Assembly: GCA_943350635.1 (NCBI GenBank)
Contig: CALRAI010000006.1
Coordinates: 1-38,858, forward strand
DNA from: Candidatus Uhrbacteria bacterium
Lineage (GTDB): Bacteria > Patescibacteriota > Patescibacteriia > UBA9934
Length of the DNA stretch: 38,858 nucleotides
Direction of reading: 5' to 3'
Part shown: positions 768-26,491 of the stretch, piece by piece
Position numbering within the stretch: position 1 is the stretch's first letter
How the letters are laid out: every line of letters begins with the position of its first letter
Position numbers and translations under genes: made by a program
Notes under the pieces: generated by a model
What the model saw: the letters and a program-made list of their open reading frames with translations, nothing else
The model's database searches: none
What the model was told of the DNA's origin: nothing

Positions 768-947
768 ACACTATTTATTTGTATTTACTCCCAAAATGGT
801 ACGCCGCGTCAGTACCTCACGGCAAGGGTCTGTGGGGTTGGCTCACGTTTCAAGAACGCGAGAATGTCACTATTCCACGCGGTGACAACCGGGAACAATT
901 CCCACGCCTGCGCTAGGAAGTTCGTGGCCATTGTCCTCGTGGTCACC

Positions 948-980
948 AAAAAAGCACCTTCCCTTGGGTAGGTGCTTTTT
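948..980. terminator. Rho-independent terminator-like hairpin (aaaaaagcacctt...taggtgcttttt)
   Basis: Inverted repeat AGCACCT/AGGTGCT flanked by A and T runs. Confidence 0.6.
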
Positions 981-1084
981 CTGATGGTGTGGTATCAAGA
1001 AGAAAGAAGGACAATCATTCCAGACGTCTATCGTGGACGCATGCCGATGGATTCAGAAAACGTTCGGCGAAGCACGGTGATTTC

Positions 1085-1303
1085 TTACGTTATCTCCCCG
1101 CTTTGTTTTCGTAAATCCTCTTCCCATGCTTTCAACTCCACAATCTGCTCATCTGGAAGATCGTCATGGACGATTTGCCAACGCGCCGTAAGTAACCATT
1201 CTCGAAGATTTGCAATCTTTTTTTCCAATGCTGGTATTTGGTGATCATTAAACGTTGCAGCAATCTCCTGATTTGTCATCTGTTGCAATGGTTTACCGGC
1301 CAT
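1085..1303 (-). CDS. Hypothetical protein (72 aa)
   Basis: ORF with coiled-coil-like charged composition; no family recognised. Confidence 0.4.
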   Translation of the reverse strand: MAGKPLQQMTNQEIAATFNDHQIPALEKKIANLREWLLTARWQIVHDDLPDEQIVELKAWEEDLRKQSGEIT

Positions 1304-1359
1304 AGTCGCAATGGTTTACCGGCCACAGTAGAATATTCAAGATTCAAGAACGAGTCCCA

Positions 1360-2418
1360 CTAAATCTGCTTCGACTCAAGAATACCGGATTTATACAGCT
1401 CCAAAAGCACAAGAAATGCCGCAAGCACCGTTGGTCCAAGCACAAATCCAATCGGACCAAATGCGTTCAATCCTCCAAGCATCGAAAGAAGAATAAGGAG
1501 TGCGTGCATTCGCGTTCTGCCGCCCACGATGATGGGTTGCAACAAATTATCGATAAGTCCAACGCAACACAAGGACCATATCAGCAAGCCAATAGCTTGC
1601 GGAACATGTCCGGACACAAACAGATATGCCACTGCCGGCAACATAATTACCGACGTTCCCACCATAGGAACCTGTGCAGCAATCACTACTAATCCGGCCC
1701 AAATCAACGGACCAGGCACACCAAAAATTGCCAAACCAACTCCAGCAATAACACCTTGAATCACCGCAACAATAAGTGATCCAAAAACAACACCACGTAC
1801 CGTTGCTACCAATCGTGCAGCAACCGCGTTATCGATAGAATGTTTTAGCGGGCTCAACAATACAAGCTCTGCCTTAATTTTTTCGCGATCAAGCAAAAAG
1901 AAATATAACGAAACAAAGAAAATAAACGTTTTGAATACAATATCCGCAGAGCTCGCAAAAATGGTTCCAATATTCTGCACCATCCATGTTGCTATCCCAC
2001 GAAGAATCTCCGCAGGATCGATAAGCGCAAGTTGCGACACAAGAATTGTGGGCAAGAGATCAAAAAACGGAAGCGAACGGAGCGTAAACGATTGCGTCCA
2101 CAACGGATTTGCTAACGTATCCTGTAATATCTGAACCGCTTGATCGGCAGTCAGGAGCGCGATAGTCGCCAATGGGAGCACAATTGCAGAAAGCACTAAG
2201 GCGATCATAATCAGCGCTGAAACTTTTGGATGCCCTGTCCATAACCGAATATGGTGCTCCAGCGGGGCAACAAGAATACCCACAATTGCTGCAGTAATAA
2301 GAACGATCACGAACGGTTCGAGTACTTTCCAGAACAGCAATCCTGCTCCAGCAAAAATCAAAAGAAAAAACCATTTCGCAATACGTTGATGATCGGACGA
2401 TGTTCCAAGTCTTGGCAT
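1360..2418 (-). CDS. AI-2E family transporter (multi-TM permease-like protein)
   Basis: ORF 1360..2436; likely start at 2418 (MPRLGTSSDHQR) with TATACT 8 nt upstream. Multiple TM segments and AI-2E-like C-terminus (GLIDNLLQPIIVGGRTRMHALLILLSMLGGLNAFGPIGFVLGP). Confidence 0.85.
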   Translation of the reverse strand: MPRLGTSSDHQRIAKWFFLLIFAGAGLLFWKVLEPFVIVLITAAIVGILVAPLEHHIRLWTGHPKVSALIMIALVLSAIVLPLATIALLTADQAVQILQDTLANPLWTQSFTLRSLPFFDLLPTILVSQLALIDPAEILRGIATWMVQNIGTIFASSADIVFKTFIFFVSLYFFLLDREKIKAELVLLSPLKHSIDNAVAARLVATVRGVVFGSLIVAVIQGVIAGVGLAIFGVPGPLIWAGLVVIAAQVPMVGTSVIMLPAVAYLFVSGHVPQAIGLLIWSLCCVGLIDNLLQPIIVGGRTRMHALLILLSMLGGLNAFGPIGFVLGPTVLAAFLVLLELYKSGILESKQI

Positions 2419-2460: not shown

Positions 2461-2487
2461 GTATTCCGCACCAAGTCGCTTTGCGAA

Positions 2488-2745
2488 TTAATCGCGTGGG
2501 CGAGCCTGGGAAACGGAAATTGTGCGACCACCGAAATCGGTTTGGTCGAACATCTTCACTGCATTTTCCTGCTCTTCAGGTGTGTTGAATTCGACGAAGC
2601 CGAATCCACGCTTGCGGCCAGTTTCCTTCTCGATAGGGAGGAAAACGGAAACCACAGTACCTGCTGCGCTGAAAAGTGCCTTGAGTTCATCTTCGGTAGC
2701 TGCATACGGGATGCCGCCTACGAAAACGCGTGCGTTGTCTGCCAT
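2488..2745 (-). CDS. RNA-binding protein with a single RRM domain (85 aa)
   Basis: RVFVGGIPYAATEDELKALF (RNP2) and KRGFGFVEF (RNP1). Confidence 0.92.
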   Translation of the reverse strand: MADNARVFVGGIPYAATEDELKALFSAAGTVVSVFLPIEKETGRKRGFGFVEFNTPEEQENAVKMFDQTDFGGRTISVSQARPRD

Positions 2746-16345: not shown

Positions 16346-17846
<1,501 letters not shown>

Positions 17847-22251: not shown

Positions 22252-23307
22252 TTATATTTTCCTCCCCCGAATCGCCAAGAACATTGGCACTTCACGTCGT
22301 ACCCGATTCTCAGCCTTTGCTCGTGGCCCCGATGTTGATTCTTTGTGCGAAATCCATTCTTCCATGGCGTCGACGGCGAACCCTGCTGATGATAATGCCG
22401 TGATGTAGGACGAGATTGGACGGTGAAACGATGTGGTATTCACGGTTGGCGCATCGCCTGGATGCATTTGCATCGGAATCGCACTTTCCGTCATGTAACT
22501 ATCTACACGGCGATACATCAACTTCCGTTCATCTTCAAATCCCCAAGAGCTCTGACGAGGAATGCGGAATGCTGGATGATTGAGGACAATAACGAACGGC
22601 GCATTCTTGTTCAACATTCTGCTTACACTCGCAAATACCGCTGGCATGTCGTTGATGTTTTGGAGTGCAAGAACGAGTGCTGCACCGTCGAATCGGCGAT
22701 CACGAAGATTACGATCCGCATTCGCAGCGTCACCGACCAAAAATTCCGAGTTTCGAATATGTTTGTTCTGCGCTTGGCGAATCAGCGTTGGAGCCGCATC
22801 GATTCCCACCACAGCTCCCCCTTGCTTCACAATAAGATTTGCAAAACTTCCCTCACCACACGCAACGTCAAGAAATGTTTTTCCCGGACCAACACCAAGC
22901 ATACGCAACGCTCCCGGCCATACCACTTCACTCTGATACGTTCCTGGCGCAGAAAGATGCGTACCATACCATTCCGCAACATTCTCCCAACTGGTAGACG
23001 ACGCAGCACCAGCAGCACGCGGACCCGCTTTCCGTTGGTCGAATTTTGGACGATCGTCTCTCCTATCCGAAGCACGATGCACTCGTGGGCCAAATGGCAC
23101 CGCACGCGCACCACGCCTACCATCCTTCATATACGCTGGCTTGCTATTTGGACGTGGAGCCTGATCGAATCGCGCATCTGGTCGCGCATCGCGCGGAGCA
23201 CGATCAATACGCTGAACACCCTGCGTTCTTTTTCCACTCTGCGTACCTGTTGTTCCTTTTCCGCGACGAGCAAATGCCGGGCCTCGGCGTGACGATGTGT
23301 GTTCCAT
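22252..23307 (-). CDS. Class I SAM-dependent methyltransferase with Arg-rich N-terminal extension
   Basis: LGVGPGKTFLDVACGEGSFANLIVKQGGAVVGIDAAPTLIRQAQ (motif I); start probably MEHTSSRRGPAF. Confidence 0.82.
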   Translation of the reverse strand: MEHTSSRRGPAFARRGKGTTGTQSGKRTQGVQRIDRAPRDARPDARFDQAPRPNSKPAYMKDGRRGARAVPFGPRVHRASDRRDDRPKFDQRKAGPRAAGAASSTSWENVAEWYGTHLSAPGTYQSEVVWPGALRMLGVGPGKTFLDVACGEGSFANLIVKQGGAVVGIDAAPTLIRQAQNKHIRNSEFLVGDAANADRNLRDRRFDGAALVLALQNINDMPAVFASVSRMLNKNAPFVIVLNHPAFRIPRQSSWGFEDERKLMYRRVDSYMTESAIPMQMHPGDAPTVNTTSFHRPISSYITALSSAGFAVDAMEEWISHKESTSGPRAKAENRVRREVPMFLAIRGRKI

Positions 23308-23370
23308 AAAATGACAAAGATGAATTGCATGCACTATCGCAGAAATTTCACGTTCCGTCTATCAACACCT

Positions 23371-23398
23371 TTGACAACATTTTGTCTCCGAGTATACT
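23371..23398 (+). promoter_or_regulatory. Promoter TTGACA-16-TATACT
   Basis: -35 at 23371-23376, -10 at 23393-23398; predicted start site only a few nt before ATG 23409. Confidence 0.7.
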
Positions 23399-23408
23399 CA
23401 AATCAGAT

Positions 23409-23510
23409 ATGAACTCCCGATTCGCAAAATCCTTTACCTCGTTCTGGCATGGCTATTGGCATGCCACCATTTTGCGTTCGCCGGAATTCGCTGCTACTGC
23501 GCTTGCATAA
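23409..23510 (+). CDS. Putative leader peptide (33 aa: MNSRFAKSFTSFWHGYWHATILRSPEFAATALA)
   Basis: Short ORF directly after a strong promoter and just before a terminator; Trp codons 13 and 17. Confidence 0.5.
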   Translation: MNSRFAKSFTSFWHGYWHATILRSPEFAATALA

Positions 23511-23527
23511 TCAAGCACATATTGCAC

Positions 23528-23556
23528 AAAAAACCGCCGAACGCCGGCGGTTTTTT
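23528..23556 (+). terminator. Rho-independent terminator/attenuator
   Basis: aaaaaaccgccgaacgccggcggtttttt. Confidence 0.8.
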
Positions 23557-23628
23557 GATGCTTGAGCGTCAACTCCGCCGCTTCGCGCGCGCGGAGCGGT
23601 GAACCACCCACTCAAGTCCGGAGTCTCC

Positions 23629-24753
23629 ATGCCCTTTCTCATTCGCGTTCGCAACGATCTCTCGCTTGCAAACATCGTCAGCCTCTCCAACGCTGGTCGT
23701 TGTGTAATGAAAACGCCACACGTCGGCAATTGGTACGCCAACAACCTCGCTATTGCCTCTTTGGGCATCCGCATGAAGGTATGCGACCACACCCGCGGTG
23801 AGCGCGACAAAAACTTTCATCCGCACACCGTCATTCGCAACGGAACGCAAACGATTGTGGGAAGTTCGTCGCTCCTCATGACACATGCCGCTGTGGAACA
23901 CGCAATGGATGACGTGATGATTCCCGGCGAACGAATCGGGGAAGGCCACATGCGTGCGCTACAGAAGGCAATTCCCGAGCTCAACGCCGAACAACTGAAT
24001 GCGGAATTTCTTCCGCGAAATGCCGAACGCGCCCTGCGCATTGTGCGGTACTTCGCGGAACACTTTCCCATGCTCTTTGAACGACGGGTGCTTTCAAGCG
24101 GCAACACCATGCAAGAATCACTGCGCTCTGTGCAGCAACTCGATCGCAACGGTGTGTATGGCGTCACATCGCTCGCGGAAGGTTGGCTCATGCCTAACGC
24201 GCTAAACATCCTCATGGACGGCGCGATTGATGCGGCAACGATGGGAGAATGTGAAGTGTTCGCGCTCTCTGGGCCAGATATGTTCCGGTACATTCCGGAC
24301 ATGCAGGCACAACTCCACGAGCTTTACGACGGCTTGCGTAGCGTAATGCCGGAACTGCCGGAGACGATGACCTACCACGTGGTGCGCGTTGCAGAAATGC
24401 GATTCGCAGTACCAGAACGTCGGCGCCGTACGCTGGATACGCTCATCGACCAATACTGCAGGTACGAATCGATTCGCGGATCGTGGAATATGCAACTTCG
24501 TGACGCACGCGCACAAGAAAAAGCGGAAATGATCCTCGCAGCAAACACCGAACGCGCGGCAGCAACGCAGCAGCTTCGCAACGCAATCGGTGAATGTTCA
24601 GAACCGTTCTACGCAATTGCGGAAGGGACGTATCTCAGTCAGTACGACTTGCTGAGTCGCGACGAACGCATCGTAATTCATCCGTGGGCAATGGAAACGT
24701 CGCTCGCAGATGTGGAAACCGCAGTTCGAGTGATGATGAAGCTTCGCGGCTAA
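23629..24753 (+). CDS. Hypothetical protein (374 aa), SD-led
   Basis: Long ORF; ATG 23629 preceded by CCGGAGTCTCC; no family recognised. Confidence 0.7.
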   Translation: MPFLIRVRNDLSLANIVSLSNAGRCVMKTPHVGNWYANNLAIASLGIRMKVCDHTRGERDKNFHPHTVIRNGTQTIVGSSSLLMTHAAVEHAMDDVMIPGERIGEGHMRALQKAIPELNAEQLNAEFLPRNAERALRIVRYFAEHFPMLFERRVLSSGNTMQESLRSVQQLDRNGVYGVTSLAEGWLMPNALNILMDGAIDAATMGECEVFALSGPDMFRYIPDMQAQLHELYDGLRSVMPELPETMTYHVVRVAEMRFAVPERRRRTLDTLIDQYCRYESIRGSWNMQLRDARAQEKAEMILAANTERAAATQQLRNAIGECSEPFYAIAEGTYLSQYDLLSRDERIVIHPWAMETSLADVETAVRVMMKLRG

Positions 24754-24800: not shown

Positions 24801-25760
24801 ATGACCAACATTCTCCAAAATATTCCGCTCATCGACTGTCACCAAGATCTCTTGGCGCACTTACGCTATCGCGATGTGTACAAACAAAACCAACAAACTG
24901 ATTACGCAATGCTTCAAAAACACAACGTGATCTGCACCGTGGCAACCGCATTCCCAATTCCGGAAAACGAAGCATGGTTCCACGCATCAGCAAACACGCT
25001 CATTGAACGCGATCTCATCGACTATCAGTCACACTGCGCCTGTATTCCATCGTGGTCGATTACAACAGGTGCAGAGAGTTTCAACACACTACAAAATGGA
25101 CTTCTCCTTCACATAGAAGGCTTGAATGTTTTTACCGGCACACCAGAAGACTGGGCACGACTCGACCGATGGTACACACTCGGACTCCGATCTGTTGGCA
25201 TTGTATGGAACCTCACCAATTCCCTCGGCGGCGGAACGAAAGACGCAACATCACGACTCACGCCACTGGGAAAATCCGTACTTCAGTATCTCGAGCGAAA
25301 ACACATGATCATCGACTTTGCCCACATGAACGAACCAACATTTTGGGACGCTGCCGATGCCACACAAGGACCAATCTACGTCAGCCACGCCAATGCTCAA
25401 GCGTTATGCAACTCACCTCGGAATCTCAACGACCATCAACTTCGTGCCATCGCACAACGCGACGGTTCTGTTGGAGTCATGTTTGCAAATCGATTCATCT
25501 GCGCGGATCGCAAAGCAACCATTGCTGACGTTGCGAATCACATTGAGCACATGCTCAATATTATGGGACCACGTCACGTTCACCTTGGTACAGATCTCGG
25601 CGGCATCATTAGTGGAACCATTGACGGTCTCGATACCGTAGCAGGAATTCCCGATCTCTTCGCCGAACTTCAACGCAGAAACATTCCCGAAGCAACTCTT
25701 ATCGCCATTGCACACAGCAACGCCACTCGCGCACTCTCCGCAATGCTCTCTCCCCTATGA
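24801..25760 (+). CDS. Membrane dipeptidase (peptidase M19 family)
   Basis: IPLIDCHQDLLAHLR, HMIIDFAHMNEPTFWDAADATQGPIYVSHANAQALCNSPRNLNDHQLRAIAQRDGSVGVMF, HVHLGTDLGGI. Confidence 0.88.
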   Translation: MTNILQNIPLIDCHQDLLAHLRYRDVYKQNQQTDYAMLQKHNVICTVATAFPIPENEAWFHASANTLIERDLIDYQSHCACIPSWSITTGAESFNTLQNGLLLHIEGLNVFTGTPEDWARLDRWYTLGLRSVGIVWNLTNSLGGGTKDATSRLTPLGKSVLQYLERKHMIIDFAHMNEPTFWDAADATQGPIYVSHANAQALCNSPRNLNDHQLRAIAQRDGSVGVMFANRFICADRKATIADVANHIEHMLNIMGPRHVHLGTDLGGIISGTIDGLDTVAGIPDLFAELQRRNIPEATLIAIAHSNATRALSAMLSPL

Positions 25761-26491
25761 TTGGCATATTTGACTCCGGCAGCGGCGGCATTTCTGTTCT
25801 TCGACATATCCGTCGTATGGCGCCTGCTGCAGATATTGTGTATTTCGCCGACACAAAACACATGCCATACGGCGAACGAACACCAGATGAGATTACAACG
25901 CTCACGCTAGCCGGCGTGCGTCAGCTTCGAGACGCTGGCGCCGACACCATTGTGATTGCGTGCAACAGTGCATCGTCAGTATTTCAACCGCTTACGCAAT
26001 TACTCCTTGGTGGAGCATCGTTTATAGACACCATAGAACCCACAGTACTGAGCGTACCCGCAAACGCAACACGACCAATTGGAATCGTGGCAACCCCCAC
26101 AACAATTCGTTCAAAAATCTTTCAGTCTCAATTTGCACGCTGCGGAATTCCTACCATCGATCTTCCAAGTGCAACACTCGCAACAGCCATTGAACATTCC
26201 GCATTCACCAACATTCGTCATATTATTCGCTCCATTATTCAAGACGCCGTTCGTCAACACTGCACAACGCTTCTCCTGTGTTGCACCCACTATCCGCTCG
26301 CATACGACATCTTTCTCCAAGAAATTCGTCGCTCCAACAACAATATTCTCCTTATTGATCCAACCATTGCCATTGCTCGCAGCGCCATATGTCGAGCGTC
26401 AACCGAAGGAACCGGAATATTCAAAGTTATTACCACCGAACCGTCCGAAACATTACATCATCATCTCCGTGCCGTTTCATCTCCCACATAA
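25757..26491 (+). CDS. murI: Glutamate racemase
   Basis: MIGIFDSGSGGISVLRHIRRMAPAADIVYFADTKHMPYGERTPDEI...IACNSASS...LLLCCTHYPL. Confidence 0.96.
   Translation: MIGIFDSGSGGISVLRHIRRMAPAADIVYFADTKHMPYGERTPDEITTLTLAGVRQLRDAGADTIVIACNSASSVFQPLTQLLLGGASFIDTIEPTVLSVPANATRPIGIVATPTTIRSKIFQSQFARCGIPTIDLPSATLATAIEHSAFTNIRHIIRSIIQDAVRQHCTTLLLCCTHYPLAYDIFLQEIRRSNNNILLIDPTIAIARSAICRASTEGTGIFKVITTEPSETLHHHLRAVSSPT

Follow-up and report, generated by a model that had tools for sequence, protein, structure and literature searches.

A gene for a 374-residue protein of an undescribed family, found in the genome of a Candidatus Uhrbacteria bacterium, is preceded by a promoter, a short open reading frame (ORF) with two tryptophan codons and an intrinsic terminator whose 5′ arm can pair with the leader instead. 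We interpret this arrangement, with a probability of roughly three in four, as a transcription attenuator of the ribosome-mediated kind. Charged tRNA-Trp is its most likely signal, and it would control an operon of three genes, which encode the undescribed protein, an M19 dipeptidase and an Asp/Glu racemase. The evidence comes from sequence comparison and RNA folding. The stretch of DNA that was analysed (38,858 nt, here called the window) makes up contig C6 in a genome assembly of 949 kb and 54 contigs, which is 97.7% complete.

Organization of the leader and its operon

The features of the locus are as follows.

23371..23398, forward strand: promoter, TTGACA (23371-23376), a 16-nt spacer and TATACT (23393-23398), with 11 of 12 consensus matches
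23409..23510, forward strand: putative leader ORF of 33 aa, MNSRFAKSFTSFWHGYWHATILRSPEFAATALA, with ATG at 23409 and TAA at 23508-23510; orthologous loci have a 20-45 codon ORF in the equivalent position
23423..23476, forward strand: segments 1:2, candidate anti-antiterminator, CGCAAAAT (23423-23430) paired with ATTTTGCG (23469-23476) in the minimum free energy (MFE) and centroid folds
23474..23484, forward strand: segment 2, 5′ strand of the candidate antiterminator, GCGTTCGCCGG, identified by its pairing with 23534-23544, by shuffles and arm swaps, and by the stalled-ribosome fold
23527..23557, forward strand: predicted intrinsic terminator, segments 3:4, CAAAAAACCGCCG-AACGC-CGGCGGTTTTTTG, from the folds
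23560..23617, forward strand: second stable stem-loop (z = -2.35), between the terminator and the Shine-Dalgarno sequence of the target gene
23629..24753, forward strand: target gene, 374 aa, undescribed family, with GGAG at 23620; 19-sequence alignment and AlphaFold2 model
24801..25760, forward strand: renal-type dipeptidase of family M19, second in the operon (PF01244, E=1e-64)
25757..26491, forward strand: Asp/Glu racemase, third gene of the operon (PF01177, E=7e-17)

The positions given by the original prediction for the promoter, ORF, terminator and gene were correct on re-examination, with the terminator stem now extended to 23527-23557. The -10 box ends 10 nt upstream of the leader ATG, and the leader ORF has no Shine-Dalgarno sequence; RNA polymerase would start just 5′ of the ATG, so that the leader peptide would be read from a nearly leaderless transcript. 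The promoter is the top of four promoter-like sites in a 10-kb scan, where 10.7 would be expected by chance, and the match by itself is therefore no proof of a promoter. Across positions 23300-23640, searches of Rfam at both thresholds gave no match to a leader, T-box or riboswitch family (Phe_leader scored 20.6 bits against a gathering score of 55). Near-identical terminators close another operon in the same genome and one in a sister species.

The two Trp codons of the leader lie at 23445-23447 and 23457-23459, and are flanked by a hairpin of TGGCATG (23445-23451) with CATGCCA (23460-23466) that is nested inside the 1:2 structure. Segment 2 begins 17 nt past the initial T of the second Trp codon, and GCGTTCGCCGG pairs at 10 of 11 positions with CCGCCGAACGC (23534-23544), which is segment 3, the 5′ arm plus loop of the terminator. 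Both this pairing and the 1:2 and TGGCATG/CATGCCA pairings had been proposed before, and all of them were recovered, the latter two in the MFE fold. The free leader RNA has an MFE of -55.1 kcal/mol (z = -5.0) and folds into the 1:2 structure and the terminator, with both hairpins present.

The proposed mechanism has three states. When tryptophan is ample, the ribosome would reach the stop codon and mask segment 2, so that the 3:4 terminator forms. When charged tRNA-Trp is scarce, the ribosome would stall at the second Trp codon and disrupt the 1:2 structure; segment 2 would then emerge just ahead of the stalled ribosome and pair with segment 3, and transcription would go on. If the leader were not translated at all, the 1:2 structure and the terminator would both form, making termination the default. 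Folding the RNA with ribosomes placed on it, a check suggested by the original prediction, gave corresponding structures: the 1:2 structure and terminator with no ribosome, the antiterminator with a ribosome at the last Trp codon, and the terminator with a ribosome at the stop codon. The window shows this three-state pattern, as do most Trp-bearing leaders among those listed, and the 1:2 pairing appears in the fold predicted for the window and in those for most of the others listed. In the G012 and G123 leaders, the antiterminator is favoured when the RNA is fully free of ribosomes.

Conservation of the layout across orthologous loci

All 19 main-family loci with upstream DNA (the window and 18 others) have a promoter, a short ORF and an intrinsic terminator, followed by the target gene. 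Because one of them (G606) has two leaders, these 19 loci contain 20 leaders. In the leaders other than that of the window that have their own intact promoter, the first base of TTGAC(A/G) lies 34-50 nt upstream of the leader start codon; the leader ORFs of the orthologous loci have 20-45 codons with almost no 5′ UTR before the ATG, and the terminator usually lies 16-38 nt downstream of the leader stop codon. When relatives were searched with the DNA of the window leader, the matches were terminators only, since the element is conserved in its layout and not in its sequence. Further, the distant homologue in G873 (L159) also has a promoter, a short ORF and a terminator. The long-form subfamily member in G807 has no such leader and has another ORF directly upstream, and for its close relative in G171 the upstream DNA covers 45 nt.

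Several loci elaborate on the layout. In G606 (L036 / L124), two leader-ORF and terminator units stand in tandem upstream of the target, the second of them lacking its own promoter, and in G012 a second terminator, closer to the gene, follows the leader's own. A paralogue in G375 (L023, upstream of 1501) has an inverted-repeat insertion, TATAGTCATCACATTATGAAAT ... ATTTCATAATGTGATGACTATA, between its promoter and its leader ORF. The stem-loop that follows the attenuator terminator is variable in sequence; its z score has a mean of -2.5 over 18 loci and falls below -1 at 14 of them; equivalents of the window's stem-loop at 23560-23617 were seen at L007, L013, L025, L027, L015, L016, L017, L018, L019, L032 and L033.

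Covariation of the predicted antiterminator pairing

The predicted antiterminator and terminator are mutually exclusive, and the 2:3 pairing covaries across the loci. In particular, the pairing between a leader and its own terminator 5′ arm was stronger than in most dinucleotide shuffles for all 19 leaders tested (p from 0.000 to 0.17), with the window's duplex at -15.9 kcal/mol (p=0.006). Across 16 non-redundant leaders, pairing with the own arm averaged -14.6 kcal/mol, compared to -9.4 kcal/mol for arms swapped in from other species, and own-arm pairing exceeded all 20,000 permutations (p<5e-5); these 16 leaders remained after near-copies were removed, and some are still related, which makes the effective sample smaller. 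The terminator hairpins were picked by hand and segment 2 was chosen by a best-match rule, which biases the results toward finding duplexes; the shuffles and arm swaps apply the identical rule and so control for this bias. Within a single genus, a compensatory change from T:A to C:G is seen between ATTGCCCG/CGGGCAA (G375) and ACTGCCCG/CGGGCAG (G302, G404).

Overall, these comparisons support a leader-peptide attenuation geometry of the trpL type, as had been claimed from the single sequence: the short ORF is present in every main-family locus with upstream DNA, the layout and the 2:3 pairing recur, and the pairing is kept while its sequence has wholly changed.

The amino acid that would be sensed

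Trp codons occur in 13 of the 16 non-redundant leaders (p=6e-4 versus random short ORFs), and relative to the long ORFs of the window genome the leaders are enriched 2.9-fold in Trp. The span from the A site of a ribosome to its leading edge is about 12-17 nt, and in 7 of the 16 leaders a Trp codon starts 12-17 nt upstream of segment 2, where shuffles gave a mean of 1.6 and never as many in 3000 trials (p<1/3000). On the protein tree, five changes are needed to account for which leaders have Trp at this stall distance, so the placement is not the quirk of one clade. Most leaders have one Trp codon and not a run, and in several others Trp is present but lies outside the stall distance.

A less probable account, and one that we consider unlikely, retains the ribosome-mediated attenuator with a signal other than tryptophan, such as generally slow translation, scarcity of His, Phe or Tyr, or arrest by a nascent peptide or an antibiotic, which would make the Trp codons incidental. 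His codons are present in 18 of 19 leaders and both Phe and Tyr codons in all 19, with 2- to 2.4-fold enrichments (His 2.4, Phe 2.4, Tyr 2.0). The leaders of G329, G351 and G732 are hydrophobic and have no Trp codon, so that another residue or signal must act there. An attenuator-like leader also precedes an ABC-F gene in the window genome, and an antibiotic-responsive attenuator is known before an ABC transporter operon of Bacillus subtilis (PMC4191407). However, at the footprint distance Trp alone shows significant placement, the same test giving p=0.10 for His, 0.25 for Phe and 0.48 for Tyr, which weakens the His and Tyr alternatives that the original prediction had allowed. In addition, the leader of G800, found after the placement test, has its sole Trp codon 12 nt upstream of an antiterminator paired at 11 of 11 positions (p=0.004), and thus shows the Trp placement again out of sample. 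Tryptophan as the sensed residue is therefore backed by codon position, although it is not universal.

The three Trp-less leaders, together with the Asn-rich leader of G873, suggest that the sensed residue may vary among lineages. The G873 (L159) leader, MHYSYANNNQNQSNDNILSAFFV, is rich in Asn and Gln codons and has no Trp, and its sensed residue may differ. The leaders of G329 and G351 can also be read in a Trp-rich alternative frame, which was rejected because by inspection it has no start codon.

It is very improbable that the leader is instead a small gene in its own right, for a short RNA or a small protein, and that the target is transcribed from another promoter. Its own promoter, the strong terminator and the very stable fold of the free RNA would suit such a gene, and the trp leader of Sinorhizobium meliloti does also act in trans (PMC7298713); yet the leader here is tied to one target gene across families without any conserved peptide or RNA sequence, its mutually exclusive pairings are conserved, and the 10-kb scan listed no promoter-like site in the interval from terminator to target. 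The chance that promoter-like and terminator-like matches, both common at random, were merely juxtaposed in one genome is negligible, as the arrangement is conserved in 19 loci with covariation and the window's leader-terminator pairing ranks third among the 45 terminators upstream of genes in its genome.

The target family

The target had been called an orphan gene, which is wrong since it has orthologues, though neither Pfam, NCBIfam, PHROGs nor the PDB holds a match to the protein by sequence. Searches of whole genomes placed members of the family in 21 of those covered (G000, G012, G302, G329, G351, G371, G375, G404, G407, G415, G123, G171, G211, G304, G373, G606, G688, G732, G800, G807 and G873). 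Its distribution is patchy, covering 2 of 23 genomes of the taxonomic family and 10 of 73 of the order. The window genome's relatives are 0.5-1.6 Mb in size, which, taken with the absence of trpA, suggests a member of the candidate phyla radiation. No relatives were found in viral contigs, and two Bacteroidota matches cover only 31-65 residues. Identity to the window protein is 20-42% across the family and 21-42% in the 19-sequence alignment; residues H107, G158, G185, GPDM 215-218 and Y221 are invariant, and H31xG33N34 is nearly so.

The AlphaFold2 model built from the 19 sequences is confident (pLDDT 90.8, pTM 0.89). Foldseek comparison of this model with the PDB and with viral models gave no match at E<=0.001. 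The best PDB structure was an arginyl-tRNA synthetase (ArgRS), which is not significant (E=0.04, probability 0.21); other weak matches were to cyclodipeptide synthase and pantothenate synthetase, which have HUP-type folds, and in the viral structure library to arginine-tRNA ligase and cytidyltransferases. The HxGN motif is placed after a predicted strand at 25-28, and its position and the strand order may hint at an aminoacyl-tRNA synthetase (aaRS)-like protein, which we take as a lead only. Assignment to the HUP or class I aaRS-like proteins was not supported: there is no significant fold match, and the synthetases do not come out high when the genome's ORFs are compared by profile.

Operon partners and genomic setting

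The first 4 nt of the racemase gene lie within the dipeptidase gene, and the racemase's nearest named model is glutamate racemase (TIGR00067), at 117.6 bits and below the cut-off of 146.65. An M19 dipeptidase lies downstream of the target in 15 genomes, and a racemase homologue was detected downstream at 12 loci. Where M19 is missing, its place is taken by an unrelated peptidase, either an S66 LD-carboxypeptidase (G606, G688) or an M15 D-Ala-D-Ala-type dipeptidase (G732). Peptidases of these S66 and M15 kinds, and some M19 enzymes, cleave bonds to D-residues, and so D-amino-acid-containing peptides would be the common theme of the operon's peptidases. The operon racemase is the sole PF01177 member in the window genome; the four sister species of the genus (G001-G004, 97-100% complete) have no PF01177 match and also lack the target, which is consistent with the operon being gained and lost as a unit.

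The trpA gene is absent from the window genome and present in 14 of 14 control genomes, and the organism is probably a tryptophan auxotroph. Because trpA is lacking, the metabolism of peptides or D-amino acids could plausibly be cued by scarcity of imported tryptophan. The genome's own tryptophanyl-tRNA synthetase (TrpRS) gene, trpS, has no such attenuator leader upstream. The 16S rRNA gene at 16347-17845 is solitary; the rest of the window contains neither a 23S nor a 5S match.

A broader and speculative proposal, which we hold to be doubtful, is that these leaders form a family of residue-specific attenuators, mostly for Trp and in some lineages for other residues (for example, the Asn-rich MHYSYANNNQNQSNDNILSAFFV of G873), and that each reports the supply of whichever amino acid a new HUP/aaRS-like enzyme uses. 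Together with a D-bond peptidase and an Asp/Glu racemase, this enzyme would give the candidate phyla radiation a so far undescribed pathway for amino acids or dipeptides, and the attenuator would be followed by a second RNA hairpin that is conserved.

Relation to known attenuators

Mycobacteria have leaderless, cysteine-responsive short ORFs. The window's leader ORF likewise appears leaderless and rich in the residue it would sense; unlike it, the mycobacterial ORFs sense cysteine, belong to actinobacteria and have no known relation to the window operon. Control of the trpL type is a classic device; the operon and the target family are undescribed, and the setting may be new. In trpL attenuators, the ribosome stalls at regulatory codons for the amino acid that is sensed, and the antiterminator forms (PMC1183508; PMC7298713). 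The window shares with those of Escherichia coli and S. meliloti a leader ORF with Trp codons, an exclusive antiterminator and terminator, and a segment 2 that is predicted to be freed on stalling; its probable nearly leaderless start also resembles S. meliloti rnTrpL, an RNA that starts at the trpL ATG (PMC7298713). Unlike trpL, its operon has no Trp biosynthesis genes and its genome has no trpA, Trp codons in this family are usually single rather than in a run, and there is neither an Rfam match nor a detected sequence relation.

Ribosome-mediated attenuation has also been described for an auxiliary TrpRS gene (Vecchione and Sello 2010, as cited in PMC4787780). As far as that citation describes it, the attenuated gene there, as here, is not a Trp biosynthetic one, but the window's target is no recognisable TrpRS. 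Like bmrCD of B. subtilis, the window has a leader peptide and ribosome-mediated attenuation, both putative here, before a non-biosynthetic operon; unlike it, bmrCD answers antibiotics and controls a multidrug ABC transporter (PMC4191407).

In the literature searched, mostly papers available without subscription, no report dealt with leader-peptide attenuation in Patescibacteria, and none with transcription attenuation in the candidate phyla radiation; the device may be previously unreported in this group. If the tryptophan-sensing attenuator is real, it places classic translation-coupled attenuation in bacteria with tiny genomes that are probably amino-acid auxotrophs. It would also offer a first functional handle on an unannotated protein family, as one that responds to Trp supply and has peptidase and racemase partners, and each leader's sensed residue would be a clue to what the undescribed enzyme uses.

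Other attenuator-like leaders in the genome

Two further loci in the window genome have similar parts. At L093 (contig C38), an attenuator-like leader of 30 aa, MIRSLAKLCQFRGAFTEAAFVLGIVLPCRA (~2477-2569, minus strand), and a terminator precede a gene for an ABC-F type ATPase (880-2316, minus strand), which has no close orthologue in the taxonomic family (best 31%); its leader-terminator pairing of -18 kcal/mol is the strongest in the genome scan. At L060 (contig C1, ~64650-64830, minus strand), a TTGACA promoter, a short ORF and a terminator, with a pairing of -15.3 kcal/mol, may form an attenuator for the GNAT-like acetyltransferase gene that they precede.
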